This document shows, in pieces, positions 3,118-61,400 of a stretch of 64,000 nucleotides of DNA (within the stretch, counting starts at the first letter, position 1; each line of letters starts with the position of its first letter). The notes under the pieces are model-generated. The model saw only the letters and a program-made list of their open reading frames with translations. It ran no database searches and was not told where the DNA came from. The stretch is taken from contig LGRX02035406.1 of the NCBI GenBank assembly GCA_001247695.2, positions 1-64,000 on the forward strand, written 5' to 3'. The DNA comes from Cymbomonas tetramitiformis (lineage: Eukaryota > Chlorophyta > Pyramimonadophyceae > Pyramimonadales > Pyramimonadaceae). Both the position numbers and the translations under genes were made by a program.

Positions 3118-3382
3118 AGGCTCCTAATCGGTTTAACCGATATTCCGATATATCGATATATCGGGGAAAAACGGGAAATCGGTATCGATCGATATCATTT
3201 TTGTGCACATTTCATCGATAAATCGGTATCGATTCAGTTTAGTATTGGTGGTCTTATGTATTGTATACGGAGAATTGTATATAAGATTCAATAATCGATA
3301 TGAATCGATATCATCGATTATCGATTGAAAATGTTGAATATCGAAATCGATCGATATGCAAGTTTGAAACCGATTAGGAGCC
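3118..3382. mobile_element. MITE with 16-bp terminal inverted repeats
   Basis: The ends GGCTCCTAATCGGTTT (3119-3134) and AAACCGATTAGGAGCC (3367-3382) are perfect inverted repeats. The 13-bp sequence CTGGAGCAAAGCA occurs on both sides (3105-3117 and 3383-3395). The inside is AT-rich and full of CGATATATCG and ATCGAT dyads. It sits within the methyltransferase remnant, whose reading resumes beyond it. A 13-bp duplication is long for a MITE, so part of the match may be chance. Confidence 0.8.
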
Positions 3383-38468: not shown

Positions 38469-39783
38469 TGAACAAGGCTACAATTCAAGCAATTGCAATA
38501 TCTTTATGGCAGGAAAGATTGACCAGTAATTTAACAGGTTGAGCAACAGCTCCTCCAAATAGTTACTTCAAGTTAGAACAGCCTCCAAATGGGCAAAATT
38601 CAGGTCTTATACTTTCAAGGCGCGCAGTTCATATCTCTAATCGATCTGTCCCATGTCGGCTGGCATATCATCATCTGCCACCTATACAAATCCTAATCAG
38701 AGAATCTGCATTTGGACAATCCTAATCAAGACAGTTGATTTCATTGTCCCTTGCTGATCTTTGCCTTCTTCCTACGAGGAGCCACGTCAAGCACTTCTTC
38801 GTCATCACTGTCACTGCTTATGGTGCATTTCAATTGAGTTATATACTCATGTGTCCAACATCTCGGATATTTCCTAGGTTGCCTCTTCGTCTCTTCAGAC
38901 ACCCCAGCCTTATTCTCACCCATTGAAGTCAATCCAGTATCTGACCCATGGTTTCTTCGGTGGTACATGAACAGTCTCCACCACAGAGGCTGGGGCATCC
39001 TCAGATATGGCCTCAGACTTCTGCTCGGTGATAGGCTGATCCTCTGGCTGAACAGGTGAGGTCGGGGAGGTGCCCTTTGGCACCCAGATAAGTTCACCCT
39101 TATCATCCATGATCAATTGCAGTCCCAGTCTCTTCAACCTTCGAGCTTCAGCTTGTTCTTCAGCATCGTCAGCTACCAAGTCATCGAACTCGCTGACGTC
39201 ATCCTCGGTGTCATCATATTCGGGCGAGGCGGGCTCCCATTTCGGACTGGTAGTGTCCATGTCATATGTGACACCCGCGTCATCGTTGTCATCCGAACCT
39301 GGTAGCTTCTTCTTACTGTCAGTGACACCCGCGTCATCATTGTCATCAGAATCTAGTAACTTCTCCTTACTCCAGGACACAGCGCCTGTACCCGAATCGT
39401 CACTGTCCGTAGGCGCTGAGTGTACAGGCTTACGCCCCGTGTATGGAATTCCACGATATTCGTCATCGTCAATCACAATCGTCGGATTCCAGTGCCCAAC
39501 GCTGCTGATCGGTAATGAGAATGGCGCTACCGGCGCCTTCAATTGAGTGGCGTCTTCCAGAAACCAGCCGCCGCCCCTATTACGCTCCCAGCGTCGTAGC
39601 GCACCAGAAGGGTGGACGATAATATGCTGCCAGCTATAATCAAGTCCAGGCTTTCGCTCCCCATAGTACGAAGTCAATGGCTCGGGAGTCCCCTTCCGAG
39701 CCCATTGCCATCTCACTGCCCCAGTACGCATAAATACAATATGCCAATCGAATGGCTTGGCCGGGCTATTGTTCCCTGGCACA
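38469..39783 (-). mobile_element. 3' LTR of Ty3 copy C
   Basis: 1315 bp, TGTGCCAGGG...CCTTGTTCA on the minus strand. Nearly identical to 59,663-60,987 (1325 bp), with a few substitutions and short indels, so the insertion is fairly young. It contains most of a long ORF. Confidence 0.9.
38741..39731 (-). pseudogene. LTR-encoded ORF, 3' LTR copy
   Basis: Starts at the ATG of MRTGAVRWQWARKG; the frame is open from the very first bases of the LTR. The N-terminal third is Trp-rich (VRWQW, SWQHIIVHPSG, RRWERNRGGGWFLED). A middle acidic part has repeats of DSDDNDDAGVT and EDDVSEFDDLVADDAEE, and the C-terminus ends RRKKAKISKGQ, a nuclear-localisation-like basic tail. A 2-nt loss near 38,943, relative to the other LTR, shifts the last 60 codons. 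No family is recognised. It is conserved, with the same frame, in both LTRs. Function unknown. Confidence 0.6.
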
Positions 39784-39797
39784 ACTCCTCCCCTCTT
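39784..39797 (-). other. Polypurine tract of copy C
   Basis: Minus strand AAGAGGGGAGGAGT directly before the TGTGCCAGGG start of the 3' LTR. Confidence 0.75.
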
Positions 39798-39863: not shown

Positions 39864-42800
39864 TCAGCCATGCGTATGGATGCGTGATATGCTTTTCTGA
39901 TCGAACAGTTGCTCGAAGAGTTGACGAAGCAATCCAGAGGGCAGAGGGTATACAGCAGTGGAGACTCCCGCTCCTTGTTGCCCCGGATGAGGTCCCAGTT
40001 GAGCAGTTTCCGGATGTGATCCCAGAGTCTGTTGGTGAAGACAAGGAGTATCCATCGTACAGTACCGTAGGTCCACTGGAGGAGGCGACTGCGTCCAGAT
40101 GCAAGTAGGCTTGCGGTAGCCAGTGCCATACATACAGTAAGAGCAATACAACGGGGTAGGTAACCGTCGAACTACGGGTCGAAATCGCAGCGCAAAGGGA
40201 AACCTGCCCATCGGATTTTCCATAAACCAATGCTTGGGTTTGAGAAAGTCAAAAATTTGGAGCGTTCGGCGTACACAGGCATCAGCCTGTCGCAGTTGTC
40301 GCACCCCAGTGGTCTTAGCCTGACTGTATTCGGTGCACGGTGGACTAGCCCAGATGACGTCAAAGTAACCAGGCGCGTAACGCTTGAAGTCCCAGTCCTG
40401 AACCTTCTCAGCGTAGGTAGGTTGCCAGCGAGGATCATGATCGACGGTGACCACAGTGCTCTTCGGATAACATGACAGGAAACTTCTCTCCACACTTCCT
40501 GTACCACTGAAAAGTACTAGTAGTCGCAACTCGCGTGTCGAGACCACAGAGTCCAGAAGAGCTAGATGCGTCACAAAGGCGTCAGAGGAGCGACAGTATT
40601 GTTCCCAAGGTAGGCAGTTGTCCAGAGAAGTGAGTTTCCCTTCATCAGAGGTGTCCAGGAAAGTTAGAGCTCTGGCGCGTTCCCGCCTTTGCTTCCGCTG
40701 CATTCTGACCTCCTGTAAGGCTTTTTCACGGGCTTGTCCTTCTCGTGATAGTCTCAGTTGTTCGAACTCCGTGAGCTGTTCGAGTTCACCCCCGTAGTTC
40801 AACGACTCACGGGTCTTCCAGGAGTCATGAGCATTAGAGTACCCAGTCCAGCGAACCAGAAATTCTTCTACTTCCTTGCCTCCTTTCATAGGTTTCACTC
40901 TTCGAGCCAGAATCTTAGACACATGGGTCTGGGATTGTCCATCCACGAGAACCTTGGCAGGAGTAGGTATTTGCCGACGCAGCGCAAAAGCTTCATCCGC
41001 GGTGCGGTATTCCTTGAGGCGATGCTGCGCAAAAACATCGTGGATACGCCATTTAGGGGGTAACTTGAGCCGATAAGCCACCGGAGCACCTCTGTCAATT
41101 TCGGGTAGCTCTCGCTGCTGGTCACTGAAGAACCTCTCGGTGATGGGTAAGGGCCCGTGCCAGCGAGGTCCCAGCTTCCTGAAGGATTCGCGGTTCATGA
41201 TATTTTCCGTGAGATGCTTGGCATCTACCCAGACCAAGTCTCCCAACTGAAAGGATTTGGCGGTGTGACGCTGGTCAAACTGATGTCGCTGGCGTTGCTG
41301 TGCCAGTTCTAGCTTAGTGCGGGCGTCCTCTAGTTGAGCCGCGAATTTACTAGCCATCTCGTGGGCAGTACCTTCTCCACCCTTACGCCTGGAGTGTTGT
41401 CCAGCAGCCGCTTGCAGGAACAAGTCCAGTTGCGACATAGGCGAGTGCCCCAAGACCAACTCAAACGGGGTAAAGCCGGTTACATCGCTCCGCGTATCGT
41501 TTATGGCGAACTCTACGTTAGCACACCACAAGTCCCAGTCCTCTGGATTGCTGCCTACGAAGGACCTTAGCATGTCTTCTACCACGCGGTTGGTATGTTC
41601 AGCTTGTCCGTCCGAACGAGGGTTGTAAGGCGTGGTGGAGGCCACTTTGGTTCCCATAAGTCTCATCAATTCCTTCCACATAGCATCCTGAAAACGAGGG
41701 TCGCGGTCAGAGACAATCTTCATAGGGGTGCCATGTAGTTTCCAGATGTGGTCGAAGTAGATTCGAGCTATAACCTCAGCGGAGCTGTCCTGGAAGTTCA
41801 ACGGGATGATGTGAACCATTTTGCTGAGCTTACACGTGAAAGTAGCAAATGCATCGTGATTCCGCGCCGTGACTGGCAGTCCAGTGACAAAGTCCACACT
41901 GACCACTTGCCATAGTCGCGTAGGAATAGTGTGGGGGTTCAGCAATCCATCCGGGTAGGAATTTCTCGGTCGCACCGCTTGACAGATAGTGCAAGATGAA
42001 ACCCAGCGTCCCACATCTTCCGCTGCCCCTTTCCACCAGAAGCGTCGCAGTACTCGTTCCAGAGTTTTGTCCCTGCCCGCGTGTCCAGCTGAAACAGATG
42101 CATGCGCCTCTTGCAGCACTACCTCGCGGAGTGGGGAATCTTCTCCCAGTACCAACTGATAGCGTCCAGCGCTCACCCTCCACAACACATCTCCCACTAC
42201 GCAGAAGTCACGAGTGCGTTGATGCGGAGCTTCTTGGATTTCCTTCCTTAAAGTCTGTAGGGGGCCAGGTCGCCCATATTCCGCTTGCAGCGCTTTGAGA
42301 AACTGGCCTCCTGATATCTGCTGATGCAGGTCTCGAACGCTGGCCGCTTCTCCAGTACGCACGATAGGAGGGGGGGAACTCGTCTTCCTTTCCCGCTTGA
42401 CACGCTGTCGAGCTGGCGGGGCGTACACCACTAGCAGGGGCCAAGGAAGGGCTCCATCCGGGGCAGCGAACATCTGCACAGGTTCTCCCTGAGCGTCATG
42501 GGTAGGAATAATGTACTCCACTCTCATTCCCGCAGATCTGAACAACTGCCGCCACTGGGGCATGCGAGACTGAAAGTCAGGAAGGACAAAGAGAGCTGAA
42601 GTATTCTCAGGGTCCAGACGCCATTCTTCCACATATCTCCTCAGTACGGCCTCGATGGTCAAATGGTTGGAGGAGAAGGGAGGATTGCACCAGACGTTCA
42701 ACCCTCGCCAGTTTTCCTTCAAGCAGTCCGTCCAGTAGCGATTGACCTGACGATTCTTTCCTCCCAAGTCGCAACAGGCGTCCACCTCGAAAGGTCCATA

Positions 42801-43240
42801 TTCTTGACTCAAGAAGTCGAACATGTCCGCACGGAACTTCCAGTCCTGTCGGTCGCTGGGCTCCAGGAGTCTGGTTGAGGCCTCGCTGCACTTCGGCGTT
42901 GCTGAGTAGTCAACAGGGGTCTTCCTGGAAGAAGGAGGCGAGGATGCTGTCAGTTTGCCAGAGCGCGTCTGAACTGCCAGGGTTGCTTCCTCGTACCCGG
43001 TTTCGGCCAGCTGCAGGGTATGTAGGGCGTCCATCCAGAGTTGAGGGGAGTCCATCCAGGTGAGAGTCCCACTGTACGCGAGGACTGGTTCAGGATCTTT
43101 GGTCTTGGCGCTGTTGGACTTGCGCTCCTTCAACTTGTTGGGATCTACCACTCCCAGGGGCGCGCGTCCTTGGCGAGACTCTGGCAGCGGTGTCCTCGAT
43201 GGGAGCGCGCCCAAGGAGTTTCGACAGGCACAGTCGCACA
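39864..43240 (-). pseudogene. Pol of copy C, second part: N6-MTase-like, integrase, chromodomain, C5-MTase
   Basis: One uninterrupted frame of about 1125 codons, broken off at its start by the copy B junction. Residues about 133-275 resemble phage-type N6-adenine methyltransferases: DRQDWKFRADMFDFL, FEVDACCD, WTDCLKENWRG and VWCNPPF. Then the HHCC zinc region (His381, His388, Cys418, Cys421) and the integrase core Asp451, Asp513, Glu549, with the expected 35 residues between the last two. A chromodomain lies at about 771-828 (FLVRWTGYSNAHDSWKT). Residues 907-1112 are a C5 cytosine methyltransferase: LFSGTGSVER, SPPCTEYSQAK (Cys969 catalytic), FMENP, and YRKPTCIWT. The domain could methylate the element's own DNA or local chromatin; that is inference. 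All key residues are present, but the frame has lost its start. Confidence 0.85.
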
Positions 43241-44415
43241 CCAACGTTGTTGCTGTTTTGGGCCTGGATTGCGGGCGTCAGAGTCAAGGTGTTGGTGGAT
43301 TCGGGAGCGTCCACCAATATTATCGCAAAGAGTACACTGCAGAAGCTCTCCGGCGTCAAGCCGGTGCGCCACGAGCAAGCCATGCGGGTTCGAGTGGCTG
43401 ACGGCACCACATATGATGCTAATTCCTGCATCAGGCCCAAGCTCCTTGCTGAGACGTCGAAGGGGTCTTACGGCCAGCAGGTTGAGCTTCGGGTAATGCC
43501 CCTCGACCTCAAGGTGGATGTCATCCTGGGAGGTCCTTGGCTGGCGAACCTTTCCCCGGTTACACTGGATTATAAGAACTGGGGTTCGGTCCGGTTCACC
43601 AAGGGCAGGGAAGAGGTCGTCATCACCGGCTGTTCGCCGGGGTCCCCGGACCCCAGTCGGTCCAAGGACACGGCAATGGCACTGGTACAGGGAGTCCTTT
43701 TGAGCCAACGTCGAGCTCGCCGGGACCTGCGGACCCTCCGAAACAGAGAGGAGCAAGCTTTCGTCGTCTACCTCGGCCCCGATGGGACTTTTGGCGCGTT
43801 GGCCTGCAACAAGGGGGGGGGAGACTCCGACGAAGATTCCCCCAACGATGTTGTAGCAGGCCTAGCGTCAGAACCCTCCTCCGGGTCCGAGGATAGTGAA
43901 GTCAGCGTGCGTCCCAGCGCAACGGTGCCGGACGGAGCAGAGGAGTCTGAGGGGCCGGGAGGGTTGGTCTCGGACAGCTCCGAGTCCGGCTACAGTGACG
44001 TGGAAGGAGCGTGTCATTTGCAGAGAGTAGGGGCGGTGGTCGAGGATATTAGGCCACAGGGATTTGCGAGTACGGTCGACGAGGCCGGGGATCATCCTGA
44101 CCCTCTCAGCGTTTTCGCTAGCAAACAGGAGGCGAACGGAGCATTTGCGTTGCTTCCGCCAGCGGTGCGTAGACAGGCGATAGAGGATCACGCGGCCGGG
44201 AAGCCACCCACCTGGCACGCTCAGGCAGCCGCGGCGCTCCGGCAGGGCCGGGGTCTGGTCGCGGAGCGACGACCCCGAGCACGGCGTAAGCGAGTGCGTT
44301 GGCGTGACCAGGTCGCAGCAGTCGGTGTGGCCCCTCCGCCGAGCAGCCGCCGGGACCAAAAGTCCCCACCGTCCCGAGCCCTCAGAGTCAGAAGTCGCGA
44401 GCCTCGGCACCAGTC
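43236..44415 (+). pseudogene. Aspartic protease region of copy B
   Basis: Retroviral-type protease that would cut the polyprotein. TLLLFWAWIAGVRVKVLVDS leads into the active-site DSGAS (about 43,298-43,312). ILGGPWL (about 43,525) and LDYKNWGSVRF follow, matching copy C. A long acidic linker comes next. The frame leaves this reading around 44,400 and the reverse transcriptase continues in another frame, whereas copy C has both in one frame, so a frameshift mutation is likely. Bases 43,190-43,235 probably belong to copy C. Confidence 0.8.
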
Positions 44416-46026
44416 GTGCCGCCAGACACTACCCCGCCGCCAGCTCCGCAGACCACAGACCCGCCGGTACCGGCCGTCCCGCCAGGCACTACCCCGCCGC
44501 CAGCCCCACAGACTGCTCAGGCCTCCCCGGAACCGCCGGAGGACGAGATAGACGAGACGGTGTCGCCGGAAATCTGGCAGCAGCTTAGGGACCTGGAAAA
44601 GGAGTTCGCAGATGTCATTTGCACAGAGCTGCCGGAATCAGTCCAGTCAAGGGAATTCAAGTCCGGCATCCGGCTCAGGCCAGATTGGAGTGGGAACGCC
44701 TTGCACCGGCGAGGGTACAAGTTGTCGCAGGAGGAGTTGCGGCAACTCCGGCAACAGCTAGATGAGCTCTTAGCCAAAGGGTACATACGACCCTCGGCCT
44801 CTCCGTGGGGCTGCCCCGTGCTGATGGTCCCCAAGCCGAGTAATCCCAAAGAGTTGCGTCTAGTCATTGACTACAGACAGATCAATGAGATCACAGTCAA
44901 GGATAAGTACCCCCTCCCAGATGTCCAGAGTCTCTTAGATGACCTACAAGGCGCTACCGTCTTCTCTACGATGGATGCCCTTTGGGGATTTTGGCAGGTT
45001 CCTATGAAAGCAGAGGACGTGGAGAAAACCGCAATGACTACGCACTTTGGAGCGTACGAGTGGTTGGTCATGCCTATGGGATTGTCAAACTCCCCAAGTA
45101 CCTGGCAAAGGATGATGCAACAGTACCTCGGGCACCTACCCTTTTGCAGAGTATTTGTAGATGACATCATGATTTTCTCGGCTGAGGTTCCGGGTAAGAG
45201 CGCCCATGAGGTACACCTCGACCACCTCCGCCAGGTCTTGGAGGCGTGTCGAAAGAATTCCGTCTACCTTAAAAAGTCGAAAGTCAAACTGTGCAAACGA
45301 TCAGTCCGGTTCCTAGGGCATGTGGTGGATCGGGATGGATGCCGCCCACAGCAGGATAAGGTTGCGTCGGTACGCGATTGGCCAGACCTAGAAACTGTCA
45401 CACACGTGCGACAGTTCCTGGGCATGTGTGGCTTCTACCGAAGGTACATTCAAAACTTCGCAGATATCGCGTACCCGTTGACCCGCCTCACCAAATCCGG
45501 CGTGGACTGGACCTGGGGCGAGAATGAAAAGGCAGCATTTAAACAGCTAAAAACTGCTTTGATCTCCTCCCCAGCCTTGGCCCTACCCGATCAAAAGGGC
45601 GCAGCAGACGGTTCCAGACCCTTCTTCGTACAGACAGATGCCAGTGGAGTAGCACTAGGGGGTGTACTCATGCAGGATCAGGGACGAGGCTTGCAGCCCT
45701 TGGCCTTTGAAAGCCGGCAGTTCTCCAGCGCAGAGCAGAACTATCACGCTGGGGAACGGGAGCTTTGTGCCATCCATCATTGCACCACGGTCACCTGGAG
45801 ACATTATCTGATTTTTACATCATTTAAGCTCATGGGAGACCATAAACCCCTTCAGTGGCTCTTCGCCCCAGCTAGGGAGCTCAGCCGACGTCAGGCTCGC
45901 TGGTACGAGGACTTGGTAGAAGTAGGAGTCCATCAGATGGAGCACGTGCCAGGGCGCTGTTTAGTAGTACCAGATGCGCAGTCCCGGCGACCAGACTATC
46001 AGGAATGTCAGCCAGAGAAGGGTTGA
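44416..46026 (+). CDS. Reverse transcriptase and RNase H of copy B
   Basis: An intact 536-codon frame. A Pro-rich start with a 60-bp duplication (PPDTTPPPAPQ and PPGTTPPPAPQ) leads into the reverse transcriptase: VLMVPKP, LVIDYRQIN, VMPMGLSNSPS and the catalytic FVDD (about codons 245-248). RNase H follows, with Asp in QTDAS (about 406), Glu in GERE (about 447) and Asp in GDHKPL (about 473). The stop TGA at 46,024-46,026 overlaps an ATG at 46,005 that opens the next frame, so the break between RNase H and integrase may be coupled re-initiation or a mutation. Part of a broken element, so not expected to act on its own. Confidence 0.85.
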   Translation: MPPDTTPPPAPQTTDPPVPAVPPGTTPPPAPQTAQASPEPPEDEIDETVSPEIWQQLRDLEKEFADVICTELPESVQSREFKSGIRLRPDWSGNALHRRGYKLSQEELRQLRQQLDELLAKGYIRPSASPWGCPVLMVPKPSNPKELRLVIDYRQINEITVKDKYPLPDVQSLLDDLQGATVFSTMDALWGFWQVPMKAEDVEKTAMTTHFGAYEWLVMPMGLSNSPSTWQRMMQQYLGHLPFCRVFVDDIMIFSAEVPGKSAHEVHLDHLRQVLEACRKNSVYLKKSKVKLCKRSVRFLGHVVDRDGCRPQQDKVASVRDWPDLETVTHVRQFLGMCGFYRRYIQNFADIAYPLTRLTKSGVDWTWGENEKAAFKQLKTALISSPALALPDQKGAADGSRPFFVQTDASGVALGGVLMQDQGRGLQPLAFESRQFSSAEQNYHAGERELCAIHHCTTVTWRHYLIFTSFKLMGDHKPLQWLFAPARELSRRQARWYEDLVEVGVHQMEHVPGRCLVVPDAQSRRPDYQECQPEKG

Positions 46027-49000
46027 AGGAAAAAGGGATTGTGGATCGCGCCACGGATGGGCCCAGAGACTCCGCACCGATAGGCAAGGGGTCCGAAGAG
46101 GACGAGGATCCTACCTCTGTCCTCGGGGCAGTGGATCGCACCACCGATGGACCCGAGTACTCTGAGCCGAAAGGCAAGAGATGTGAAGAGGACGAGGATC
46201 CCACATCTGTCTTAGGCGCCACCTTCGAGTATAGTGATTCCGAGGACGAGTCCTTCCCTCCCACCAGTCCGGCACCGGTCATTGGTGAGCTCACCCATCT
46301 GAATGGGCTCACGTGGGTAGAGTCGCCGGCCCTTTGGCTGGACGCAGCTGCCACCCTAGCAGTAGGCGAGAAGTCCTTGAGGGATGCCGAATCGCTAGCA
46401 GTCATGACCAGAGCAGACCGAGCTAGGGAACAGGCCACAGCAGAAGTCCAGAGTCATCCGGAGAAAGGAGCACCGGGGACCGACGAGTTCCCCCACCCTG
46501 AGACCCAGAGTCATCCAAAGGCAGCCGGAAAGGTACCTGAGCCCGTTAAGCCCCCAGAAGGTAGCTCCCACTACGACCAGGTCGTAGATCGCCAGGACTG
46601 GAAGCTGATCAGGGAGCGCTTTGAGGAGATAGCGGCCCAGTACGGGATGTTTGACGTTGACGCGTGTTGCGACTCCATGGGCGTTAACCGGCAGGTTGAC
46701 ACCTATTGGACCGACTGCTTGAAGGAAAAGTGGCGCGGGAAACACGTTTGGTGTAACCCTCCCTTACACGAAGGATTCAGACTTGATAGAAAGAATTCTT
46801 CGGCATTTCCTTGCTGAGTGGCGCGCCGATCCGGAAAACACCTCGGCGATGTTCCTTCTGCCAGACTATGACGCTCCCTGGAGGCGGTTGATTCACCCCA
46901 AGTATGGGCTTCATCCGGTCAAGGTCTTTGACACGAAGGACGAAAAAGGTCGTCCCAACCACCTCTTCGAGTCTCCTGATGGAGGTCGGCCCCCGCTGCG
47001 CTGGCCGGTTCTTCTGGTGTGGGCCCCAGCAGCCAGCAGGGCAAAGCCCCGAGCGCCGCCTGCGCGAAAGGACAGTGAAGCAGAACCCGACGAGCCTTTA
47101 GTCACTACAGGGGTTGCAGCAAAGGCCAGGGCAGCGTCAGGACCACTGAAGGCTGATGAGTTCGTCCGCGCCTTGCAAGCGGAATACGAACGCAGCCCGT
47201 ACCTCAGCTCGTTGAAGGAAGAACTGATCGCAGCCCCACATCAGAGGACAGACACATTTCGCATGGTAGACGACATGATATGGCGAGTGGCAGAAGGGCG
47301 GTATCAGCTAGTGCTAGCTCAGGATTCCCCCCTCAGAGAGCTGGTGATGCGCGAAGCACACGAGTCCCCAGCAGCAGGGCACACAGGAAGGGATAAGACA
47401 CTGGACAGGGTATCCCGTCGTTTTTGGTGGCCACGCATGAGCAAGGATGTCACCGACTGGTGCAAATCCTGCGTCGTGTGCCAACAGACCCGGCCACGCA
47501 ACGGGTATCCAGACGGTCAGCTTAACCCCCTGCAAGTCCCAGTAAGACTGTGGCAAGTGGTTAGTATCGACTTCGTCACTGGGCTGCCCCGCACAGAGCG
47601 AGGGTACGACGCGTTTGCTACCTTCACGGACAAGTTGTCCAAGATGGTGCACGTAGTCCCCATGCTTTACGCTGACAGCTCAGCTGCACAGATCGCGCGC
47701 ATGTATTTCGACCAAGTGTGGCGTTTGCACGGCGCTCCCATGAAGATCGTCTGTGATCGGGACTCCCGCTTCAGGGATGAGATGCATCTCGAGCTACATC
47801 GGTTGATGGGAGTCCAGGTTGCCTCTACCACGCCGTACCACCCACAAGGTGATGGGCAGGCAGAGCACACAAACCACACGGTCGAACGCATGTTGCGCGC
47901 GTATGTCGACGCCAACCAGCACGATTGGGATTTGTGGTGTACCCCGGTCGAGTACGCCATTAATGACTCTCGTTCCGCCGTCACGGGCTTCACCCCTTTT
48001 GAACTGACGTATGGTCACGCTCCGGCCTCTCAGCTGGACTTCTTCGTGGAGGCAGCACTTGCATCACGGAGAGGCCGAGCTAAGGGGGGGAGGGGCGCCG
48101 CAGTAAAAAAGGGTATAGCCCACGAGACAGCCCGCCAATTTGTTCGCCAGTTGCAGCTCGCTAGGGAGAAGCTGCTCTTAGCTCAGCAGCAGCAGATCGC
48201 CCAGTACGATGCGCGTCACAACTCCAGGAGTTACGCAGTAGGCGATGAGGTTTGGGTGGACGCCACGTACCTCACCCAGCCGAGCGACCGCGGGTTGCAC
48301 AAGAAATTGCTTAAGAAGCGCCTCGGGCCCCTTCGGGTGCTGGAAGTCTTTCACAGCGACAGGCAGATGGCCCTTCCCGCGAGCGATAGAGGCGCACCGT
48401 CGGCCTATAGGTTGCTGACGCCTAAGCAGTGGAAAGTGCACGATGTGTTTACCGTGGACCGGCTTTCGCCGGTAGAGTCGAGCAGCCGCTTTGTTGAGAG
48501 AGCTAAGGAGATTCCCCCTCCTCCGTTGGACGTCAGCGGGCGCAAGGAAACCCACGTCGAGAGGGTGGAGCGTTCGCGCACGCGCCAGCGTCAGGGTAGG
48601 AGGTGGACGGAGTACCTGGTCAAGTGGACAGGAATGCCCCGCAGTGAGAACGAGTGGAAGACCCGAGAGGATCTGGAGTGGGACGGAGCCGGCAGGCCCG
48701 GCGTTCCCAACCGGGCGTTGTTGGAGTTTGAGAGGATCGAGGCTAAGAGAGTGGAGCGAGAGAAGCTTAGGGTCCGTAAGAGGCGCGACGAGTCCGCAGG
48801 AGTGGTATGGACCACGCTATCGGAGGAGCTCAATGTAGACGGAGCTATGCCATGGGTGCCAGAGGAGAGGTTTGATGAGGAAGTAGGAACTTTCGCGAGA
48901 GTATCTGCTCAGAGCACCCTGCCGCCAGTCAACGGAGCCGCAGCACTTGAGAAGGAGCCAGTCGGCCAGTCTAAGATTCTCGTATTGTTTTGTGGGACCG

Positions 49001-49818
49001 GGTCAGTCGAGAGGCAGTTCACTAAGCAATTTCCCAACAGCGAAGTAGTTGCCGTAGACATTCAGCCCAAGTGGGGCCCCACACATTGCGAGGATATCAT
49101 GCGATGGGACTACCGACAGTTCAGACCAGGACACTTCGACGTAGTCTGGGCTAGCCCACCTTGTACAGAGTACAGCCAGGCGAAGACGGTAGGCATCCGA
49201 GATTTGCGCGCTGCGGACAGGCGAGTTCGTAGGACATTGGAGATCATCCGGTACTTGAGGCCCGAAGCATACTTCATTGAGAACCCGAAGGGAAGAGAGC
49301 CCCACGGTTTGCACACGCGTCGCTGCATGAGCAATCTACCAGCTCCGCACCTCGTCACGTACTGCAAATACGGGACCGCATACAGAAAGCCCACGCACAT
49401 CTGGACCAACGTTCCGTTGCGCACACCCTTGCGAGTGTGCGATTCCGACACGCCTTGCGAGTTCTTCCGGCAGAACGGTAGGCACGAGAAGGTAGCGCAA
49501 GGAGGGCGCGCGATGAGAGCCGGAGGTGTGTTTGCGGAGGGCATGGGAGCGCGAGAGAATTTGTATGGGATTCCGTCGGCACTGTTAAAACAGCTTTTCC
49601 ACAACCTGACCCTACATGAAGAGGTGCATGCGTTCCTGTCTGAACTGCTTGTCAGGGAGGATCTGAGCGAGATGAGCGTTTTAGTCCAGTCAGCTGTTGT
49701 TGAGGGTGACCCGCCCGAGTTTGAGCCGGAACCGATAGCGTTAGCGGGAGTACGAGCTGAAGTGACGATCATACCTGAGGGCGCATGGGAATCTGACGCG
49801 AGTGGTCTTAGCGATTGA
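46005..49818 (+). pseudogene. Copy B: N6-MTase-like, integrase, chromodomain, C5-MTase
   Basis: Starts at ATG 46,005 with acidic repeats (EEDEDPTSVLGA, twice). The N6-adenine-methyltransferase-like domain (DRQDWKLIRERF, FDVDACCD, VWCNPP) is broken by one extra T at about 46,764. The frame then changes, and that second frame alone reads NPPY at this point. After the shift 46,783-49,818 is open: HHCC zinc region (EAHES...AGHTG...CKSCVVC), integrase DDE (SIDFVTG, CDRDSRF, GQAEHTN), chromodomain (EYLVKWTGMPRSENEWKT) and C5 methyltransferase (LFCGTGSVER, SPPCTEYSQAK, FIENPKG, YRKPTHIWTN). The tail of about 75 residues past the methyltransferase is acidic. Confidence 0.85.
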
Positions 49819-50604: not shown

Positions 50605-51033
50605 TGTGCTAGGAGGCAAGCACACGAGCAAGAAAAACGGCTAAGTATAAAACGCAAGAGTACTCAGTACGGAGTACAGTAGGACCGATCAGGATGATGT
50701 TGATGTGAGGTGCCTAGCCTGTTGTACGGAGTACTCAGTACAGTAGAGTTATGGAAAGAGTTCATGAGCCTTGCATAAGAACTCTAAGTGTAACCAGTTT
50801 CGGAGATGAGAACTGAACTGAGAATTGTAACATAAAAGTAAAGAGCCGTAACCGCTGTATATTGTGTATTGAAAGCATGCACTTGAAAGCAAAAGCATAA
50901 CTAGCAAGATTTACGAAACCGAAGTCTGATAGTTGACCAATCGTAATCATACCTCGTGCGGTCGTTTAATAAGTATAGATATAATAAGTCCGAAACCGTA
51001 AGGAAGAAACAAGCAAGAGTGGAGACTCCTACA
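50605..51033 (+). mobile_element. 3' LTR of copy B
   Basis: 429 bp, TGTGCTAGGAGG...GGAGACTCCTACA. It has a GTACTCAGTACGGAGTAC dyad cluster (about 50,670-50,745). The right flank is the reverse transcriptase of copy C on the minus strand, starting with AACGC (51,034-51,038). The partner 5' LTR is absent, so the length rests on the terminal TGT/ACA and the resumption of copy C. Confidence 0.7.
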
Positions 51034-53598
51034 AACGCTGCATGGGTCCCCATAGCCAAGCGACATCCCCTTTGGTGAGCTGAGTCAAAGGTTGTGCTAC
51101 TTCGGAGAAGCCCAGCATGTACCGCCGGTAGTACCCAGCCAACCCCAAAAATTGGCGCACATGCGTGGCGTTTTCCAGAGCGGGCCAGTCCCTGATGGCG
51201 GCCAGCTTGCCATGTTGAGGTTGACTTCCTTCCCGTGAGATAACGTGCCCCAGAAAGCGTATCTGGGTCTGCAATAGTTGACACTTAGACTCCTTGAGGT
51301 AGATACCCTGGTTCTCACATACTTCGAGAAATTGCTGGAGATGGGAAAGATGCTCCTCCAAGGTGTTGCTGAAGAGGATACAATCGTCCAGGAATATTCT
51401 TACAAAAGGAAGATGTCCCAGAGCGCGCTGCATGCGTCTCTGATAGCAGGAAGGACTGTTGGTCAACCCCATGGGCATCACCAACCACTCATACGAGCCA
51501 TAGGGAGAAGTGAACGCAGTCTTTTCCACATCCTCAGACGCCATAGCCATCTGCCAGAACCCATCGACTGCATCGAAGGAGGAGAAGTACTTGGCCCCAT
51601 GCATGGAGTCGAACAACTGCTGAATGTCGGGAAGTGGATATTTGTCCTTGACGGTCAGGCTGTTGATGGCTCGGAAGTCGCAGACCATTCTGAGTACTTC
51701 AGGTTTCCCAGGCTTGGGAACCATCAGCACTGGTGCAGCGAACGGACTGGAGGAAGGCCTGATGTAGCCCTTGCTCAGGAGTTCATCCAGGCGTTCTCGC
51801 AGTTGAGTCAGCTCCACCATGGACATCTTATAGGGTCTCTTAGCGGGCGCGATGCCATTCCATCCCTCTTGCAGTCTCACATGGGCCACTTCATCTTTTC
51901 GCAGGGCGTCAAAGTTGGGCAGCGCTTCGCGAATTACTCGAGGTGAAAAGGACTCGATCAGCTTTTGAAACTTCTTTCTCCATTCGGGGGAGATTGAAGG
52001 GTCCTCCAAATTCTCGCTGGTGGCCACCGCTGATAACATCGAAGTCCCTACCAAAGGTGTCGCATAGGCCACTAAGATGTCGTGGGGTGTCGCGGCACTG
52101 TCCATTCCCGCATATCTGCGCCGATAGGCTTTGATCTCCTTGGTCGCTTGGGCCGCTGATAACATTACCATCGGTTCCAGAGCCATCGCGGTTCTCTCGC
52201 CTTTGCGTGTGGAGCTACGCCCCGGCGAACATCCCCGTATCCGCACGGATTTGCCATGATGGCGAAACTTGACTGATCCCCACCCATCATAGTCCAGCGT
52301 GACCGGCGAGAGGTGTCTCAACCACCTTCCTCCGAGTACAATGTCCACCTTGATGCCCAGAGGAAGTACTCGCATCTTGATGACCTCGGAGTAAGTCCCC
52401 TCTGAAGTCTCGGCGGTCAGCTTGCCGTAAGCGACTTGCGCAGAGGTCTGCACTGACCCATCCGCGAGGGTAACGTTCAGCGGCATCCCATTAGCGCGAA
52501 CTGTGAGGTTCAATCTCTTGACGCACTCACTGGAAATGAATTCGTCCGAGGCACCAGAATCCACCAGCACGCGCACTCGCTGTCCCTTCAGCAAGGCCCA
52601 GAACACCAATAGCAGCGTTCCCTCTTTGTCCCGAATCGCAGTCAGCTGACTGTCCTGGTTCCACATTACTTGACCATCGCGTCGCAGATGTGCACAGATG
52701 GCTGCTCGCACTGGGTGATGCAAAGGTACGCGCTGCTTAGACCGGATAGGTCTTGTGCGCGGTGGTGCAGGCTGAGAACGAAGATCCGGACCAAAGTACC
52801 ATCCACCTTCCAGGTCGCGATCTGCTTGTAGCTGCCGCTCCTTAGCGCGTCGCTCCTGTCCTTGAGCGCGTCGTCTGGCGCGGCTCTGCGTGCGGCTTTC
52901 CAGAGGGTAAGAGCGAAGAGGTTGGATGGAAATCTCCTCCTCCTCTTCCTCCCCAGAGCTATCTTCTGGTTCGGACTTTTGAGTGAAAGAGGGGGGTTCT
53001 TCTTCCCGCGGTGCCGCCTGGGCGTTGGTGACGTTCGCTGGTGCTGCCACTGCTTCATTACCTTCCAGGATCGGCCGCAGACGGTGGCGTTGCTGTTTCT
53101 GAATGGCCAGTAGCAGTTCCAGGTGGGTTTCCTCCTGGATGGGTTTCAGGGGAGTCGGCTCCACTCCTTCTGTCACCGTTGTCAGCACACTTTGGTTGTT
53201 CTCTGATCTGGCGGCTGCCAACTGTCGCTCCATCAACTGCTGCGTGAAGTTGAGCGACCGCTGGGAGTCCTCGAGGTCTGAAATGTCCCCAGAAGTCGCG
53301 GGCTGAGAACTAGATGGAGATAGGGTCAAATCCAGAGTTGCTTCTGGATTCGCATCTGATGGTTCCGCTGAGTCCAGGTAGGATTGATCGCCATTAGCTG
53401 TCGATGGTAGGGCCAGGTGAGCGGCCTCCTCCGCAGCTTCCCTTTCTCGCTGGTTCCATTGGTGCACCCGGTATAGGCTGCACCAGGCGTCTGGAATTCC
53501 CACATCTCCACCAGAACCTGGAATAGTACCGCACTCGGTCTCCAGGGATAGCTGAACTGCTCCTTCGGTTATCGTCAGGTCAGGGGTGACCTTCCCAT
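51034..53598 (-). pseudogene. Pol of copy C, first part: protease and reverse transcriptase
   Basis: One frame from about 53,595 (after a TGA) to 51,034. An acidic, Gln-rich segment is followed by the aspartic protease (RVLVDSGASDEF, about 52,570-52,535; VLGGRWLRHLSPVTLDY) and the reverse transcriptase (VLMVPKPGKPE, VCDFRAIN, VMPMGLTNSPS and catalytic FLDD at about 51,385). The frame ends at the tether to RNase H (QPLTQLTKGDVAWLWG), where copy B is inserted. The upstream frame (54,007-53,600) is in phase with this one and separated only by the TGA. Confidence 0.85.
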
Positions 53599-54721: not shown

Positions 54722-57700
54722 TTAGTCCTCCTCCTCCGCAGATTGCTGACCCGAGGAGGACGCTGCGGCCGATTCCTCGTTCTGAAAATACTCCAGCGCC
54801 TCTGCTTCATCTTCCAAATCCTCCCATTCTGTCTCCAGCGCTGCGATATGAGATTCATTCGCAGCGCGGCGGCGTGCCAAACGAGCTGGGGCGTCAGCAA
54901 TCCAGGCTCGTTTCTTGGCCTCGTCGGGACAGTTAGCCCATAAATGGGAGTCAGAGTTGCATACGTAGCATCGGCGTGGCGGCCTGGTCAATCCCGCCGG
55001 GCTGGGAGGCACGGCGTGTTGCACTCTAAGGTCTGCGGGGTCGAGGTCAGTAGCGCCTTCCTCCCCAGCGTCTTGCACGGCGTTAAGTCTAGAGGACGAG
55101 CGACCATTCCTCCAGGCAGGACTTCGGTTCGCAGGTGCAGAGGCGGGAGAGGTTCGCGCTGCAGTCACAGCTTCACTGCGCTCCAGTTTGGTGGCCACAG
55201 TGATGATATGCTGCAGCGCAGTGGATCCGGGATGATTGCTTTCCCATCCCGCTGGACTTTGCAGATCCAACCGATCCTCAATAAGGCGATACATCACAGC
55301 TTGCTTCAGTCGCAGTCCAGACCAGAACTGATATAATAGCTGCTGCTGACTGATGGCGTGGCAGTTGGGCATGGCGTCGGCCAATAACTGCACCACCTCG
55401 TGCCAGGATACCAGACGAGTGGCGAACAAACGAGCAGTCTCTTCTCGTCGCTGCGCCATGCGCATCACGGTTCCAGCTAGTCCTACCAGCGCGATGTCAT
55501 CCAGCACGCTCCTGGCTACGTCGGCCAGGAAAGGTGCCAAGGTGGCGTAACGCCGGTTCCAGGCGTCCGAGTTCAACATACCACCTTGCTTGAGAAAAGT
55601 CAGAGATCGCGGCTGTAGTTTGCGCTGCGCCACTTCCTTCAAGATCTCTGGCATGGTGATCATGGTCAGGTCTAGGCGAAAAGCACTCATGCGACCCAGG
55701 GCGAAGGTGACTACGCCCATTGACAGAAAATTGACCAGCGCTTCAGAAAAAGGTGGAAGCGCGACAATATCGGCGTCAGTGGTGATTAGTTCAGCAGAGG
55801 AGGGGTACATAGGAATGTCTCTGATCAGCTTGAGCACATCAGCCACTGTCTTGGATTCTCTGTAGACATCGCCTGGGGAAGCCGCTCCCATAAGATCGTG
55901 GTGCCCTGGAAATTGAGAAAGGCGCTGGTCCACCGGCAGAAGTCCCGGAGCCGCTGGCAAGGAATTTCCAGGCGATCTGTACTCTTCTGCGCTGGGAACA
56001 CCAGAGGGAAACCGGTTGACTCCCAGTCTCGCCGGTACCGTGGCGGGAGTTGGTTGGTTGCCGGCAGCCATCCCTCGAAACAGGTACGCCTCGGAGGATG
56101 AAAATGCTGCCCAAATTTGGAGTCCAAGGGGGTCAAATTCTGTCAACTCGGACTCTAAGGCATTTTCCGCGATGGTCACCCATGAGTACAACGGCAGGCG
56201 TCTCTGCTGAGTTCCAGTACGGCTTTCCGCGCAACGCCGCGCTTCATCCACTTGCGGTTTCTCCACTTCCAAGGTGAAAGCGTCACTCGCGTCCTCGATC
56301 TCCGTCAGACGCACAGGCGTATGCACTGAACCATGCTGCGCCAGGTCTTGGATGTCCACTCCGATGTGCCGCATAGTCATCCAAATCCGATTTGTGTCGG
56401 TTATGAAGTGACTGGCGCTTCCGGGCATGGTTGGTAGTCGGTATGAATATTGGGTCTCAGCGCCATGGCTGACAGTCACTGCAGAAGAAGAGGACAGGTG
56501 ATTTCTCAACCAGAAGGAGGCTCCTTCTAAAGTCCAGAGTAACACATCTAGACGCCTGTGTCGTGGGTCACCATTATTGTCTGAAGGCGGGGGCGAGTTT
56601 CCTGGTGACGGGTGATCAGGATCCGCTGAGTCAGACGGCGATGAGCCGGCAGCCGGTGGATCAGCCGGCGCCGGTGGATTTGGCTGAAATGATGCCGGCG
56701 CCGGATAAGCCGGTGCTGGGGCCGGTTGAGCCGGTGCTGGAGCCGGTTGAGCCGGTGCGGGAACCGGTTGAGCCGGTACTGGTACCAGCCAGGGACCTGA
56801 TCCAGCTGCTGGCGCCGGTGCACCTGGTAAACCGCTCGTCCATCCTAAGGTGTGCTGGTATGGCGTCATAGGTGGAGCGCCCACCGCTGGTAGAACCGAA
56901 GTCAGATGGGGATAGTGTTGGAGCACTTGCTGATGTAGATTTTGCATGTACTCTGATACTTCTAACATCATCTGATTCTGCATTAGGGATTGATGCTGAT
57001 GGTTCAGTGCTGGGACCGAGGCATCTGAGGGCGTTCTGGCTGAGGCGGGGTCAGAGAAGAGTGCTCTGCGCTGTTCTGCCAGGCGCTGCTGGTTCTGTTC
57101 CCATCGCTGATGGCGCCTCTCCCGGCGAGAAAGCTGGTTCACTGAGTCTTGGTTCAGAGGTAAGTTTCTGACTGGAATTCGGCTGAGGACATCTGCTTGA
57201 GAAGGGGGTTCGATGACTGGAAGAGGAGGCGGCTGGTAGGCTGCGAGTCCAATGCCACGCCTGAGTGCGAGGTCGGCGTAACTGACTGAGCTGACTGTAC
57301 TGACTGGCTGCTCCGTAGTTGTTGAGGTCAGCGAGGTAGTCAAAGGTCTGGACTCGCGGTTCAACAGGGACTCGGGCATATCCGTAGTTGTTGAGGTCAG
57401 CGAGGTAGTCAAAGGTCTGGACTCGCAGTTCAACAGGGACTCGAGCATATCCGTATCCGTAGCCGCCTCCGTAGTCGCCTGAGTCAGTGAAGGCGTCAGT
57501 GAGGTTGCCTCGCTGTCTATCTCGGACTCGAAAGTCACCGATAACCTTGCCATAGAGTCACCGATCACCTTAGGTTCCGTAACGGTATCGGTAATCGGTG
57601 AAGTCAGAGAGTCACCGGTCACCTTCTCCGTAAGCGGCGATGTCAGCGAATGCCCAGAACATGCTATGCTTATGTGGCGTGGGCCACCTGTCAAGCCGGA

Positions 57701-58543
57701 GCCACCTGTCCTCCCCGCTGCCCCCACCTCCCCGTTGCTTGTTGAGGAGGGAGTTGGATGCATTGAGTGTGCCATGGGTTCGCCAGCAATGCTTTGGTGC
57801 ATGTCCTCTGACCTCCCCGCTGCCCCCACACCCCCTTGGTTAGGGCGCGGAGTCCAGGCGAGATTCTCACCCTGCTGCTGACGCTTTCGCCAGTTGGCCA
57901 CATCGTAGCGGGAGGGAAATTGGCGAAGTCCTGGTTTCTGCTCATTCGCCTCATTCTGCATGTCCTGCTCACATGCTGCAATTTTGACCTCGGTCATTTC
58001 GCGCACGGCGATCGGGTCGCGAGGTGGTCGGCCAGCAGGTAGAGGTTGTCCCGCAGAGGCTGCTCCCGCGGACTCAGCCTGAAGCGCGTTCTCGCTGAAT
58101 GGCGTGGGCAGCTGGCCGTGCGGGGAGGTCATCACCGTAGCTCCAGACCAAGTGTGTGGAGTCCTGTAGGATGTCAAAGGGCTTCGCGGTCTTGGAGCTG
58201 GAGGACTCATGTCGCGCGTCCGCGGTGGGCTCCTGCAGCGCGGCGGTGGCGGGGTCCGGTCTCGAGTCCGAGGCGGGCTTCGCTGGCGCGGAGCTGGAGG
58301 GCTCAGGTCGCGGCTTCCGGGCAGTCGCATAATGCCAGGGGAAGGGGTGGTCAAGTTGACATACCGCTGGGGAGTCGCCCTCATGTTTCGCCCTGCACCA
58401 GGGGTGTCAACAGTCAGCACCCGCGGTGACGCCGCTCTTGCATGACGCAGGGGCGGATTAGGGCGCTGTTTAGGTACCGTTACAGCCTCATCCAGGGGAG
58501 GTGTCACACAAGCTGTTCCAGAATCCAGAGCCAGAGGAGTCAT
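54722..58543 (-). CDS. Gag of copy C
   Basis: Intact 1273-codon frame from the ATG of MTPLALDSGTACVTP to TAA at 54,722. Ser/Thr/Pro-rich N-terminal half with a 24-residue duplication (PESLLNRESRPLTTSLTSTT type, about 57,330-57,440), a Pro-Ala repeat (APAQPAPAPAQPAPAPA, about 56,700-56,790), a capsid-like helical region (about 55,850-55,150) and a CCHC zinc knuckle (CYVCNSDSHLWANC, about 54,970-54,930). The acidic C-terminus ends SAEEED. Pol follows in another frame, and a GC-rich dyad (CCCGCCGGCGGG) sits just past the stop. The frame upstream of 58,543 stays open to about 58,800 but has no other ATG. Much larger than typical Ty3 Gag proteins. Confidence 0.85.
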   Translation of the reverse strand: MTPLALDSGTACVTPPLDEAVTVPKQRPNPPLRHARAASPRVLTVDTPGAGRNMRATPQRYVNLTTPSPGIMRLPGSRDLSPPAPRQRSPPRTRDRTPPPPRCRSPPRTRDMSPPAPRPRSPLTSYRTPHTWSGATVMTSPHGQLPTPFSENALQAESAGAASAGQPLPAGRPPRDPIAVREMTEVKIAACEQDMQNEANEQKPGLRQFPSRYDVANWRKRQQQGENLAWTPRPNQGGVGAAGRSEDMHQSIAGEPMAHSMHPTPSSTSNGEVGAAGRTGGSGLTGGPRHISIACSGHSLTSPLTEKVTGDSLTSPITDTVTEPKVIGDSMARLSVTFESEIDSEATSLTPSLTQATTEAATDTDMLESLLNCESRPLTTSLTSTTTDMPESLLNRESRPLTTSLTSTTTEQPVSTVSSVSYADLALRRGIGLAAYQPPPLPVIEPPSQADVLSRIPVRNLPLNQDSVNQLSRRERRHQRWEQNQQRLAEQRRALFSDPASARTPSDASVPALNHQHQSLMQNQMMLEVSEYMQNLHQQVLQHYPHLTSVLPAVGAPPMTPYQHTLGWTSGLPGAPAPAAGSGPWLVPVPAQPVPAPAQPAPAPAQPAPAPAYPAPASFQPNPPAPADPPAAGSSPSDSADPDHPSPGNSPPPSDNNGDPRHRRLDVLLWTLEGASFWLRNHLSSSSAVTVSHGAETQYSYRLPTMPGSASHFITDTNRIWMTMRHIGVDIQDLAQHGSVHTPVRLTEIEDASDAFTLEVEKPQVDEARRCAESRTGTQQRRLPLYSWVTIAENALESELTEFDPLGLQIWAAFSSSEAYLFRGMAAGNQPTPATVPARLGVNRFPSGVPSAEEYRSPGNSLPAAPGLLPVDQRLSQFPGHHDLMGAASPGDVYRESKTVADVLKLIRDIPMYPSSAELITTDADIVALPPFSEALVNFLSMGVVTFALGRMSAFRLDLTMITMPEILKEVAQRKLQPRSLTFLKQGGMLNSDAWNRRYATLAPFLADVARSVLDDIALVGLAGTVMRMAQRREETARLFATRLVSWHEVVQLLADAMPNCHAISQQQLLYQFWSGLRLKQAVMYRLIEDRLDLQSPAGWESNHPGSTALQHIITVATKLERSEAVTAARTSPASAPANRSPAWRNGRSSSRLNAVQDAGEEGATDLDPADLRVQHAVPPSPAGLTRPPRRCYVCNSDSHLWANCPDEAKKRAWIADAPARLARRRAANESHIAALETEWEDLEDEAEALEYFQNEESAAASSSGQQSAEEED

Positions 58544-59662
58544 GCTGTTAAACTCAGGAGCAGCAGCTGACAAGGTCGACTTCTTCTTGGGTATCTGGAA
58601 GCTTGGCGCACCTGCTGCTGTCGCAGCCTGCGGCGGCTGACCCGGTGAGGGCGCCTTGCAGGTGCCCTTCGCCCCCTTGCCAGTGGTTCCAGTGGCAGCA
58701 GCACCTCTCGTGCTGCGCTGCGCTGGCCTGTCGTCCCCTTGTACGCCTGGGAGTCGACGTAGGCGACGTTGGAGGTGAGCGTCCAGTGTTGGCGTTTTGC
58801 ATCATGTTGAAATTTAGTGTTGAAAAGTGGCGATCTGACCGTTGAGGAAGTCAAATCTGTCCAATTTGGGCAAATTCCCCCAGAACACTCAGAAAAACAT
58901 TTCATCGTAGCAGTGGAAGTCGTGGTGAACAAAGAAATATGCTTTCCAGAGTGCAATGCGGTTTTTGGTGGTCAAATTTCAAAAATTGAGTGTTGATCGG
59001 CAGTTTGGTTAATTTCTTGGCGGCCATTCCGAAGCAATCCAGACTAATTGGCCAGGTCCCAGTGTTGGAGACTATTTTTTTCCTTCAAAGAATATTAAAA
59101 AAATAGAAAACTATCCTTCTGGGCTCCAGTTTCCTCCTATGTAGTCTGATGGGCTCCAATTTGTCTAATTTTGCTCTGTCGTGCCGGTTGGCCATCCCAA
59201 TTTAAAATGTATAGCGATCTATGAGGACCCAGGTGTCGGGGCCAGGTTCCAAACGACAAAAAACTATCAAGAAACGTCAGGAATTTTTGTCTCTACGTTA
59301 AAACTGTCTCCGAGGTCCTCTTTTCTCAATCTGACCACTGGTCCACTTTTCACTCTCCGTTCGGGTCAATCTGGCTGTTAATCCCGGTAAATTTGAGTTG
59401 CTGGCGGCTTCTTTTCCCCCTTTCTGACCATTTTGCAGCATAACAGTTTTGGAAAATCGCCTGTCTGCATGCAGGGTGAAAGTCAGGGGGCAAAAAGGCG
59501 CAGAGCAATACCACTTCCAAGTGAAGACTTCTTGAGCACGTGACTGTATCCGAGCTGGAGCTCAAGGGTCAGTCAGAGGTTAATCTGCTTCCAATCTTGG
59601 GGCACAGGTCCGTTTTCGGCAATTTTGCAGTGTACAAAATTGCAATGTTCTAGATAAACAGT
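58544..59662 (-). other. 5' leader of copy C
   Basis: About 1.1 kb between the 5' LTR and gag. No primer-binding site starting TGG is seen next to the LTR; the minus strand continues ACTGTTTATCTAGAACATTG. No gene is recognised. Confidence 0.5.
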
Positions 59663-60987: not shown

Positions 60988-61400
60988 AGCCCACCGATGG
61001 CCCAAACACAAACCCGCAAGTCGAGGCACAAGCGCCACGAACCCAAGAAGGGGGACACAGGGAAGCCACAAAGCAACAGGGACTATGGAGGTGGCTACAT
61101 AGACTGACCCCCACGAACCCGCCAAGTGACAATGAGCAAACGCTCGGAGAGCAGAGAACGATGGAAACCCACTCAGACGAGGGGGGGGAGGAGGTAAGCG
61201 ATGAACCCACCACACAATGGGAGAAATTCGAAGACGCACAACAGGAGGCACTGGAAACAAGCCAAGACCCCCGAAAACGCCAGCCCCCCCTCACAGAACC
61301 AAAAAAGGTAGACGTAGGGGAAGACCGCCTACACATGCTCACGTGGAATATAGCAGGACAAAGTGACGCCTGTCTCGACCTAGCACATTTTACACATCTG
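60988..61400 (+). pseudogene. LINE-like ORF, third part: start of endonuclease domain
   Basis: The frame continues from 38,468 across copy C. A hydrophilic linker leads to RLHMLTWNIAGQSDACLDL; the LTWNIAG stretch resembles the first conserved motif of apurinic-type LINE endonucleases. The frame is cut at 61,400 by the end of another element. No catalytic Glu, Asp or His motifs of the enzyme remain, so the assignment rests on one motif plus position. Confidence 0.5.

Follow-up and report, generated by a model that had tools for sequence, protein, structure and literature searches.

Ty3 retrotransposons of the prasinophyte alga Cymbomonas tetramitiformis carry a Dam-type and a C5-cytosine methyltransferase domain in the same polyprotein

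We analyzed a 64,000-nucleotide stretch of contig LGRX02035406.1 of the green alga Cymbomonas tetramitiformis (assembly GCA_001247695.2, positions 1 to 64,000 of the forward strand; hereafter the window), which contains a minus-strand Ty3 element (copy B), a plus-strand fragment (copy C) and a decayed copy (copy A). It is well supported by the sequences that these copies belong to a Ty3 chromovirus family with a Pol polyprotein of the order protease (PR), reverse transcriptase (RT), RNase H, Dam-type methyltransferase domain, integrase, chromodomain and C5-cytosine methyltransferase domain. Equally well supported is that this dual-methyltransferase family is numerous in Cymbomonas and kept by selection.

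The domain order was found in one frame in P0004, a 1846-aa protein encoded in ENA data (9,009-base contig, listed with 6 member sequences), which reads PR-RT-RNase H-Dam-H2C2-integrase-SH3-chromodomain-C5. The Ty3/Gypsy chromovirus order is present in P0004, where the integrase core (rve, PF00665) scored 26.9 bits, below the curated Pfam cut-off of 32.6, and in the genomic locus L113. Among 18 genomic Ty3 loci that were retrieved (L104-L116 and L124-L128), five (L104, L105, L113, L114 and L127) encode RNase H-Dam-integrase-chromodomain-C5 in one open frame, and 15 show a C5 match downstream of Dam, some of these matches being partial or in a different frame. No C5 match was present within the stretch fetched for L106 and L111, and L116 gave one on the opposite strand only. 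Ty3-like proteins that contain Dam number 20 (P0001-P0020, counting that of the window), and 10 of them also gave a C5 profile match (partial in P0010), several of the others being truncated or differently spliced gene models. When the Dam region of the copy B open reading frame (ORF) served as query, the best match was P0002 (CYMTET_53375) of C. tetramitiformis, with 98% identity over 79% of the query region. Scans of 851,713,466 bases in 25,745 contigs gave first-look candidates, numbers of which are not copy counts: 7,257 for the Dam profile PF05869, of which all 150 that were scored exceed the cut-off without an internal stop; 1,461 for the copy B family, where 40 were scored and the 39 that lie outside the window were 97-98% identical; and 2,105 for the copy C family, where again 40 were scored and the remaining 39 were 99-100% identical.

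Neither window copy has the whole order in a single frame. An earlier note on this DNA, made from its letters, had assigned the order to both copies, apart from a loss of RNase H in one, and DVDACCD or EVDACCD, integrase, chromodomain and SPPCTEYSQAK are indeed found in both; as described, the minus-strand ORF of 39864-43244 has EVDACCD...CNPPF ahead of integrase, chromodomain and SPPCTEYSQAK. However, copy B lacks RNase H, its pol matching P0004 up to residue ~551 and resuming at ~734, and the Dam domain of copy C is split by a frame break within its NPP[Y] motif (46762-46766), so that NPPF can be read in copy B but NPPY cannot be read in one frame in copy C. The note's loss of RNase H from one copy therefore holds for the minus-strand copy, while the plus-strand copy retains it; the strand of what the note called copy C was unstated. 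The frame break looks private to copy C, because 32 of the 39 other copies of its family share a common length over the Dam stretch that differs from that of copy C. P0020 matches copy C identically (by eye) up to the break and then reads through NPPY. A third copy with chromodomain and C5 was located as the note had proposed, with a frame break near 2290. Copy C, which extends from its protease at 43247 to the end of C5 near 49620, is inserted in copy B and adjoins the copy B reading at 43244/43247, the point at which copy B has lost its RNase H; no long terminal repeat (LTR) pair belonging to it was seen in the window. This interruption of one damaged copy by another is what might be expected if the pairing of domains had arisen artefactually, through nested insertions, assembly errors or fused gene models. 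We consider such an artefact scarcely credible, because single open frames with both domains recur on other contigs of the genome and in P0004, which refutes it unless all of those frames are misassembled.

The N6-adenine methyltransferase-like domain recognized in the earlier note belongs to the Dam family. PF05869 scored 37.9 bits in copy B, 31.8 in copy C, 42.2 in P0004 and 37.0 in P0019, all above the curated cut-off of 28.1, and the predicted fold matches N6-adenine methyltransferases. The profile match spans ~70 residues (profile positions 7-78 of 169), and the remainder has diverged. The phage N6A methyltransferase equivalog TIGR01712 reached 29.5 bits, against a required 97.05, and a search of PDB sequences gave no convincing relatives of the Dam domain. 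CNPP[F/Y/W] is kept in 23 of the 24 matches that bear VD[AV]CCD, the exception being P0016, and neither the lack of a Dam match nor a loss of NPP in most relatives was found. The 24 Dam rows chosen for alignment A2 all have NPP and the D upstream of it, and EVDACCD with NPPF is kept in all 12 fetched loci of the copy B family, the window's own included. The motif is also uninterrupted, as NPPF or NPPY, in P0002 (98% identical to copy B over Dam) and in the copy C relatives P0019 and P0020. With these motifs conserved, the Ty3 Dam domain is a putative DNA adenine N6-methyltransferase.

Among its relatives, the Ty3 Dam domain stands closest to the Dam domains of DIRS-like polyproteins. We built Dam trees that kept 10 of 20 Ty3 rows and 23 of 28 DIRS-like rows (P0023, P0024, P0154, P0159 and P0161 were excluded, and P0074, whose gene model includes only part of Dam, was left unplaced), with 8 viral rows in the first tree and 26 in the second, 18 of 20 new viral rows (those of at least 100 aa) being used. 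In both trees the viral rows fall on one side with 100/100 support and the Ty3 and DIRS-like Dams on the other, and the DIRS-like rows are split from the rest by a branch with 96/75 support. The label "phage-type" that the domain had been given is thus too loose, and a phage origin of Dam is unsupported for the sampled sequences. A DIRS identity for the window elements themselves is ruled out by their H2C2 and rve integrase, since a tyrosine recombinase takes the place of the DDE integrase in DIRS elements. Cymbomonas also has DIRS-like elements of the order RT-RNase H-Dam (L117, L118, L121 and L123). Phage-integrase-type matches were found in three of six DIRS-like Dam loci, all below cut-off. 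An older survey describes green plants as devoid of DIRS1-like elements (PMC3266345, available in part).

The domain that follows the chromodomain is a C5-cytosine methyltransferase, as the earlier note had proposed. PF00145 scored 21.3 bits in copies B and C, just under its cut-off of 22, and the identification is carried by phrog_757, a phage methyltransferase family that is the best family of the domain, by the predicted fold, and by the presence of motif I, PPC and ENP/ENV. At ~200-220 aa (about 212 aa) and with a SPPCTEYS / YRKPT.IW signature, the domain is of the short viral type. Its best viral structure match (BFVD) is A0A2P0VN45, a putative cytosine DNA methyltransferase of 218 aa from Tetraselmis virus 1, which is 36% identical and has a TM score of 0.85/0.87 to the C5 model; in this green-algal giant virus it is a free-standing enzyme outside any polyprotein. 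DNMT3 ranks first in the PDB fold comparison of the model, and PDB sequence searches gave no convincing relatives, the only matches at E<=1 being two DNMT2 entries (0.76-0.78). In a tree of 110 of 204 C5 domains of at least 150 aa (spans up to ~165 residues excluded; thinned at 80% identity; viral rows limited to 20 of 82; free, retro and unknown classes assigned by a script rule), the retroelement C5s lie in one larger group with free-standing ones and the IMG/VR rows lie outside. The retroelement label requires 16 changes and the root is uncertain, and therefore one single capture is not shown. Searches for a prokaryotic or IMG/VR source of the closest free-standing proteins (P0039-P0042, P0047 and P0055) yielded only five relatives among viral contigs, at 34-38%, and no confirmed one among genome contigs; with P0040 as the sole query, none was obtained. 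The short C5 domain is also borne by P0083 and P0093 of the dinoflagellate Prorocentrum minimum (45% and 43% identity), which indicates that the C5 lineage extends beyond green algae. Across the copy B domain (39867-40532, minus strand) and its relatives, the catalytic Cys66 as well as Cys133, Cys158 and His173 are invariant in the C5 alignments A1 and A3, and Cys164 is invariant in A1 (at least 90% in A3). Cys133, Cys158, Cys164 and His173 could possibly form a metal site that replaces the target recognition domain.

Both methyltransferase domains appear to be under purifying selection. In four single-frame copies (L104, L105, L113 and L114; L127 is single-frame too and lies outside this set), pooled pN/pS was 0.033 for RNase H, 0.235 for Dam, 0.099 for integrase, 0.270 for the chromodomain and 0.082 for C5, with 0.675 for the RNase H-Dam linker and 0.163 for the chromodomain-C5 linker. 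Over 12-14 copies (L106, L110, L111 and L116 outside the 14-copy set), the domain values were 0.063, 0.205, 0.207, 0.100 and 0.104 in the same order. The RNase H-Dam linker drifts, and the chromodomain-C5 linker is constrained. Because Dam and C5 stand at 0.24 and 0.08 against 0.68 and 0.16 in these two linkers, both domains look functional. Eight relatives compared with P0004 are 48-84% identical over Dam and 47-72% over C5 where alignable, and 22-48% over the RNase H-Dam and chromodomain-C5 linkers and 40-65% over the Dam-integrase linker.

The best explanation of the pairing, to which we give about even credence, is that both domains are active and methylate the new DNA of the element or its integration site; methylation of the element's own DNA would be the likeliest role. 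Dam and C5 would travel with RT and integrase as parts of the same Pol, and because of this shared Pol, complementary DNA (cDNA) and the integration site would be the DNA at hand. The targets would be newly made double-stranded element DNA or DNA at the chosen integration site, with Dam modifying adenine at N6 and C5 modifying cytosine. Next to the chromodomain, C5 may act as a small chromatin-guided cytosine methyltransferase that marks the insertion and its surroundings, an arrangement that recalls plant chromomethylases, while Dam may mark or protect cDNA. A tentative extension is that Pol might read chromatin through its chromodomain and deposit 5-methylcytosine (5mC) and N6-methyladenine (6mA) on its own cDNA or insertion site, which would give each new copy a double methylation identity. 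The element may have joined a Dam domain also found in DIRS-like retroelements with a C5 domain of a kind also found in a green-alga giant virus.

A mainly protective role for both domains, by which cDNA would be modified against nucleases or restriction-like defences of the host, its giant viruses or polinton-like viruses, seems unlikely to us, although several lines of evidence point that way. The C5 lineage is common to a green-alga giant virus and the Dam family to phages, and viral and phage enzymes of such kinds often serve restriction evasion. The available portions of two papers add that a giant virus has integrated into the Cymbomonas genome, where polinton-like viruses are also numerous (PMC10675990), and that an antiviral role for retroelement methylases has been proposed in a review (PMC6338049). 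However, C5 adjoins the chromodomain, which suggests chromatin rather than free cDNA as its target.

Several observations weigh against the reading that both domains are active on the element's new DNA or its integration site. The motif of Dam is lost in some relatives, P0016 being without NPP and the DIRS-like P0151 reading NPL. Together with the ~70-residue extent of the PF05869 match, the loss in P0016 would fit a catalytically dead DNA-binding module, a role the earlier note had offered as an alternative; we regard this as very improbable given the invariant NPP and D of A2, the intact motifs in the copy B family and a Dam pN/pS of ~0.2, since conserved catalytic motifs and purifying selection disfavor DNA binding alone. 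The best PDB fold match of the Dam model acts on RNA caps, and RNA could therefore be the substrate: the top matches are PCIF1, a cap-adenosine N6 enzyme, and KsgA-type rRNA methyltransferases, and RT and RNase H, its partners in the polyprotein, work on RNA:DNA hybrids. It would follow that Dam methylates adenosine in the element transcript, its cap or the tRNA primer and that only C5 acts on DNA. This we think distinctly improbable, because the best family matches of Dam are DNA methyltransferase families (PF05869 and phrog_111), the DNA enzyme M.TaqI lies within ~2.4 Z units of the best match, and a shared fold reveals no substrate. With respect to selection, the contrast with linkers occurs in one linker only, the values of the chromodomain-C5 linker and the chromodomain bracketing that of Dam, and sampling started with the highest-ranking copies in a list ordered by Dam score, which favors a low Dam pN/pS; RNase H, integrase and C5 played no part in this choice. 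The short C5 domain seems to have no classical target recognition domain. In the closest tested cousin, KnitGypsy-Dnmt3, no methylation was seen in yeast, a result its authors call inconclusive in the part of the paper available (PMC5890265). Finally, we sought a mutational sign of CG methylation between copies and found no clear one: C/T rates were 0.0284 in CG, 0.0282 in CHG and 0.0233 in CHH over seven disjoint copy pairs, with corresponding values of 0.0265, 0.0249 and 0.0210 when all 91 pairs were used, and observed/expected CpG is ~0.86. This missing footprint is weak counter-evidence, because neither mark is reported to shape base composition substantially across the species of one study, in which prasinophytes are CpG-rich despite high 5mCG (PMC12695648, available portion).

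Published comparisons, given here as they stand in the available portions of each paper, place methyltransferases in retroelements singly. KnitGypsy-Dnmt3 of Klebsormidium nitens resembles the Cymbomonas element in having a Ty3/Gypsy Pol with a C5 methyltransferase under purifying selection (PMC5890265). It differs in its charophyte host and apparently in its C5, which is Dnmt3-type where the Cymbomonas domain is of the short viral type, and its description does not mention an adenine-methyltransferase domain. The charophyte comparison drawn in the earlier note does not fit, given that Cymbomonas is a chlorophyte (prasinophyte) of the Pyramimonadales and its C5 is of the viral free-standing type. 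De Mendoza et al. report Dnmt3 in the Klebsormidium Gypsy element, DNMTs in Symbiodinium elements and Dam-like enzymes in DIRS (PMC5890265). SymbioDIRS-Dnmt3 and SymbioLINE-Dnmt are likewise retrotransposons with DNMT domains, the DIRS versions being active in yeast, but belong to other retroelement classes, carry Dnmt3-type or other DNMTs and have no reported Dam. DIRS1-like retrotransposons share the RT-RNase H-methyltransferase order and the same PF05869 domain and differ in the integration machinery noted above, with no chromodomain or C5 described (PMC3266345, PMC3783388); among tyrosine-recombinase elements the methyltransferase is reported in DIRS only (PMC3783388), and a review assigns DAM to DIRS and DCM to both Ty3/Gypsy and DIRS (PMC6338049). 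Burns et al. (2015) noted three Cymbomonas scaffolds of >10,000x coverage whose repeats have a chromodomain, RNase H and a cytosine DNA methyltransferase (PMC5741210), a mention in passing that describes no adenine methyltransferase or element structure; these scaffolds are probably pieces of the dual-methyltransferase family. In the open-access papers searched, mostly at the level of title and abstract, we found no description of Dam and C5 in one Ty3 element, which agrees with the earlier judgment that the pairing is not well described.

The features of the window copies are listed in Table 1. Copy B is flanked by AGCCA and AGCCC, which agree at 4/5 positions (by eye) and may be a target-site duplication; inspection by eye identified no primer-binding site. 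Its 1283-aa ORF is probably gag, as judged from position and a weak zinc-knuckle match. The whole minus-strand protein gave no pattern match in IMG/VR.

Table 1. Positions of features of copies A, B and C in the window.
Feature	Position	Strand	Evidence
Copy B 5' LTR	59663..60988	-	TG...CA ends (element sense); 97.9% identity to 38469-39784 over 1327 columns
Copy B ORF between 5' LTR and pol (1283 aa)	54722..58573	-	PF21890 0.011, below cut-off
Copy B protease and RT	51029..53503	-	PF13650 6.9e-9; PF00078 1.8e-32; aligned to P0004 8-551
Copy B pol 3' part, Dam-H2C2-integrase-SH3-chromodomain-C5, no preceding RNase H	39864..43244	-	single 1126-aa frame
Copy B Dam-type (N6-adenine methyltransferase-like), EVDACCD...CNPPF	42375..42863	-	PF05869 1.8e-9, 37.9 bits; phrog_111 2.1e-12; model pLDDT 82.9
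Copy B H2C2	41964-42137	-	PF17921 4.8e-19
Copy B integrase core	41619..41909	-	PF00665 9.7e-6, 26.2 bits, below cut-off 32.6
Copy B chromodomain	40791..40925	-	PF00385 4.9e-7, above cut-off
Copy B C5-cytosine methyltransferase (FSGTGSV, SPPCTEYS, ENP, YRKPT.IW)	39894..40529	-	phrog_757 3e-16; model pLDDT 90.3; C5-methyltransferase folds in PDB
Copy B 3' LTR	38469..39784	-	purine-rich tract immediately before LTR, element sense (read by eye)
Copy C protease, start of inserted fragment	43247..43750	+	tblastn of P0004 24-190
Copy C RT and RNase H	44416..46026	+	PF00078 3.4e-31; PF17917 1.4e-28
Copy C Dam N-terminal part (DVDACCD ... CNPP), up to frame break	46587..46772	+	PF05869 1.4e-7, 31.8 bits
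Copy C remaining Dam, integrase, chromodomain, C5 (SPPCTEYSQAK present)	46783..49818	+	single frame
Copy C C5-cytosine methyltransferase	48970..49620	+	phrog_757 6e-17; 51% identity to copy B C5
Copy A, decayed: chromodomain (2155-2289), C5 (2294-3142), frame break between	2155..3142	+	tblastn of P0009

Outside these copies, a plus-strand ORF of 287 aa (37608-38471) directly adjoins the copy B 3' LTR and has no Pfam or PHROGs match; by eye it resembles an Ulp1-like cysteine protease. A 231-aa ORF at 21137-21832 (plus strand) matches N6/N4 DNA methyltransferases over their C-terminal portion (PF01555 5.2e-10; phrog_67 4.2e-12), and is apparently a fragment of a third kind of methyltransferase in the window. 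Repeat arrays lie at 12044-13299 (8 copies, mostly at 136-base spacing) and 604-1440 (4 copies at 179-base spacing). Rfam and tRNA scans of the window gave no match at the thresholds used.

As far as the available literature extends, retrotransposon methyltransferases have been met one kind at a time, adenine in DIRS and cytosine in a few Ty3, DIRS and LINE elements. What is new here is that a single Ty3 polyprotein combines both kinds; its high numbers in the host and the selection on it argue for a separate task for each domain. The finding suggests that modification enzymes have been traded among classes of retroelements and with a viral gene pool, and it raises the question of why DNA would be methylated by a mobile element whose host may silence it through methylation. 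With many potential writers of 6mA and 5mC in this genome, methylome data from Cymbomonas need to be interpreted with care.

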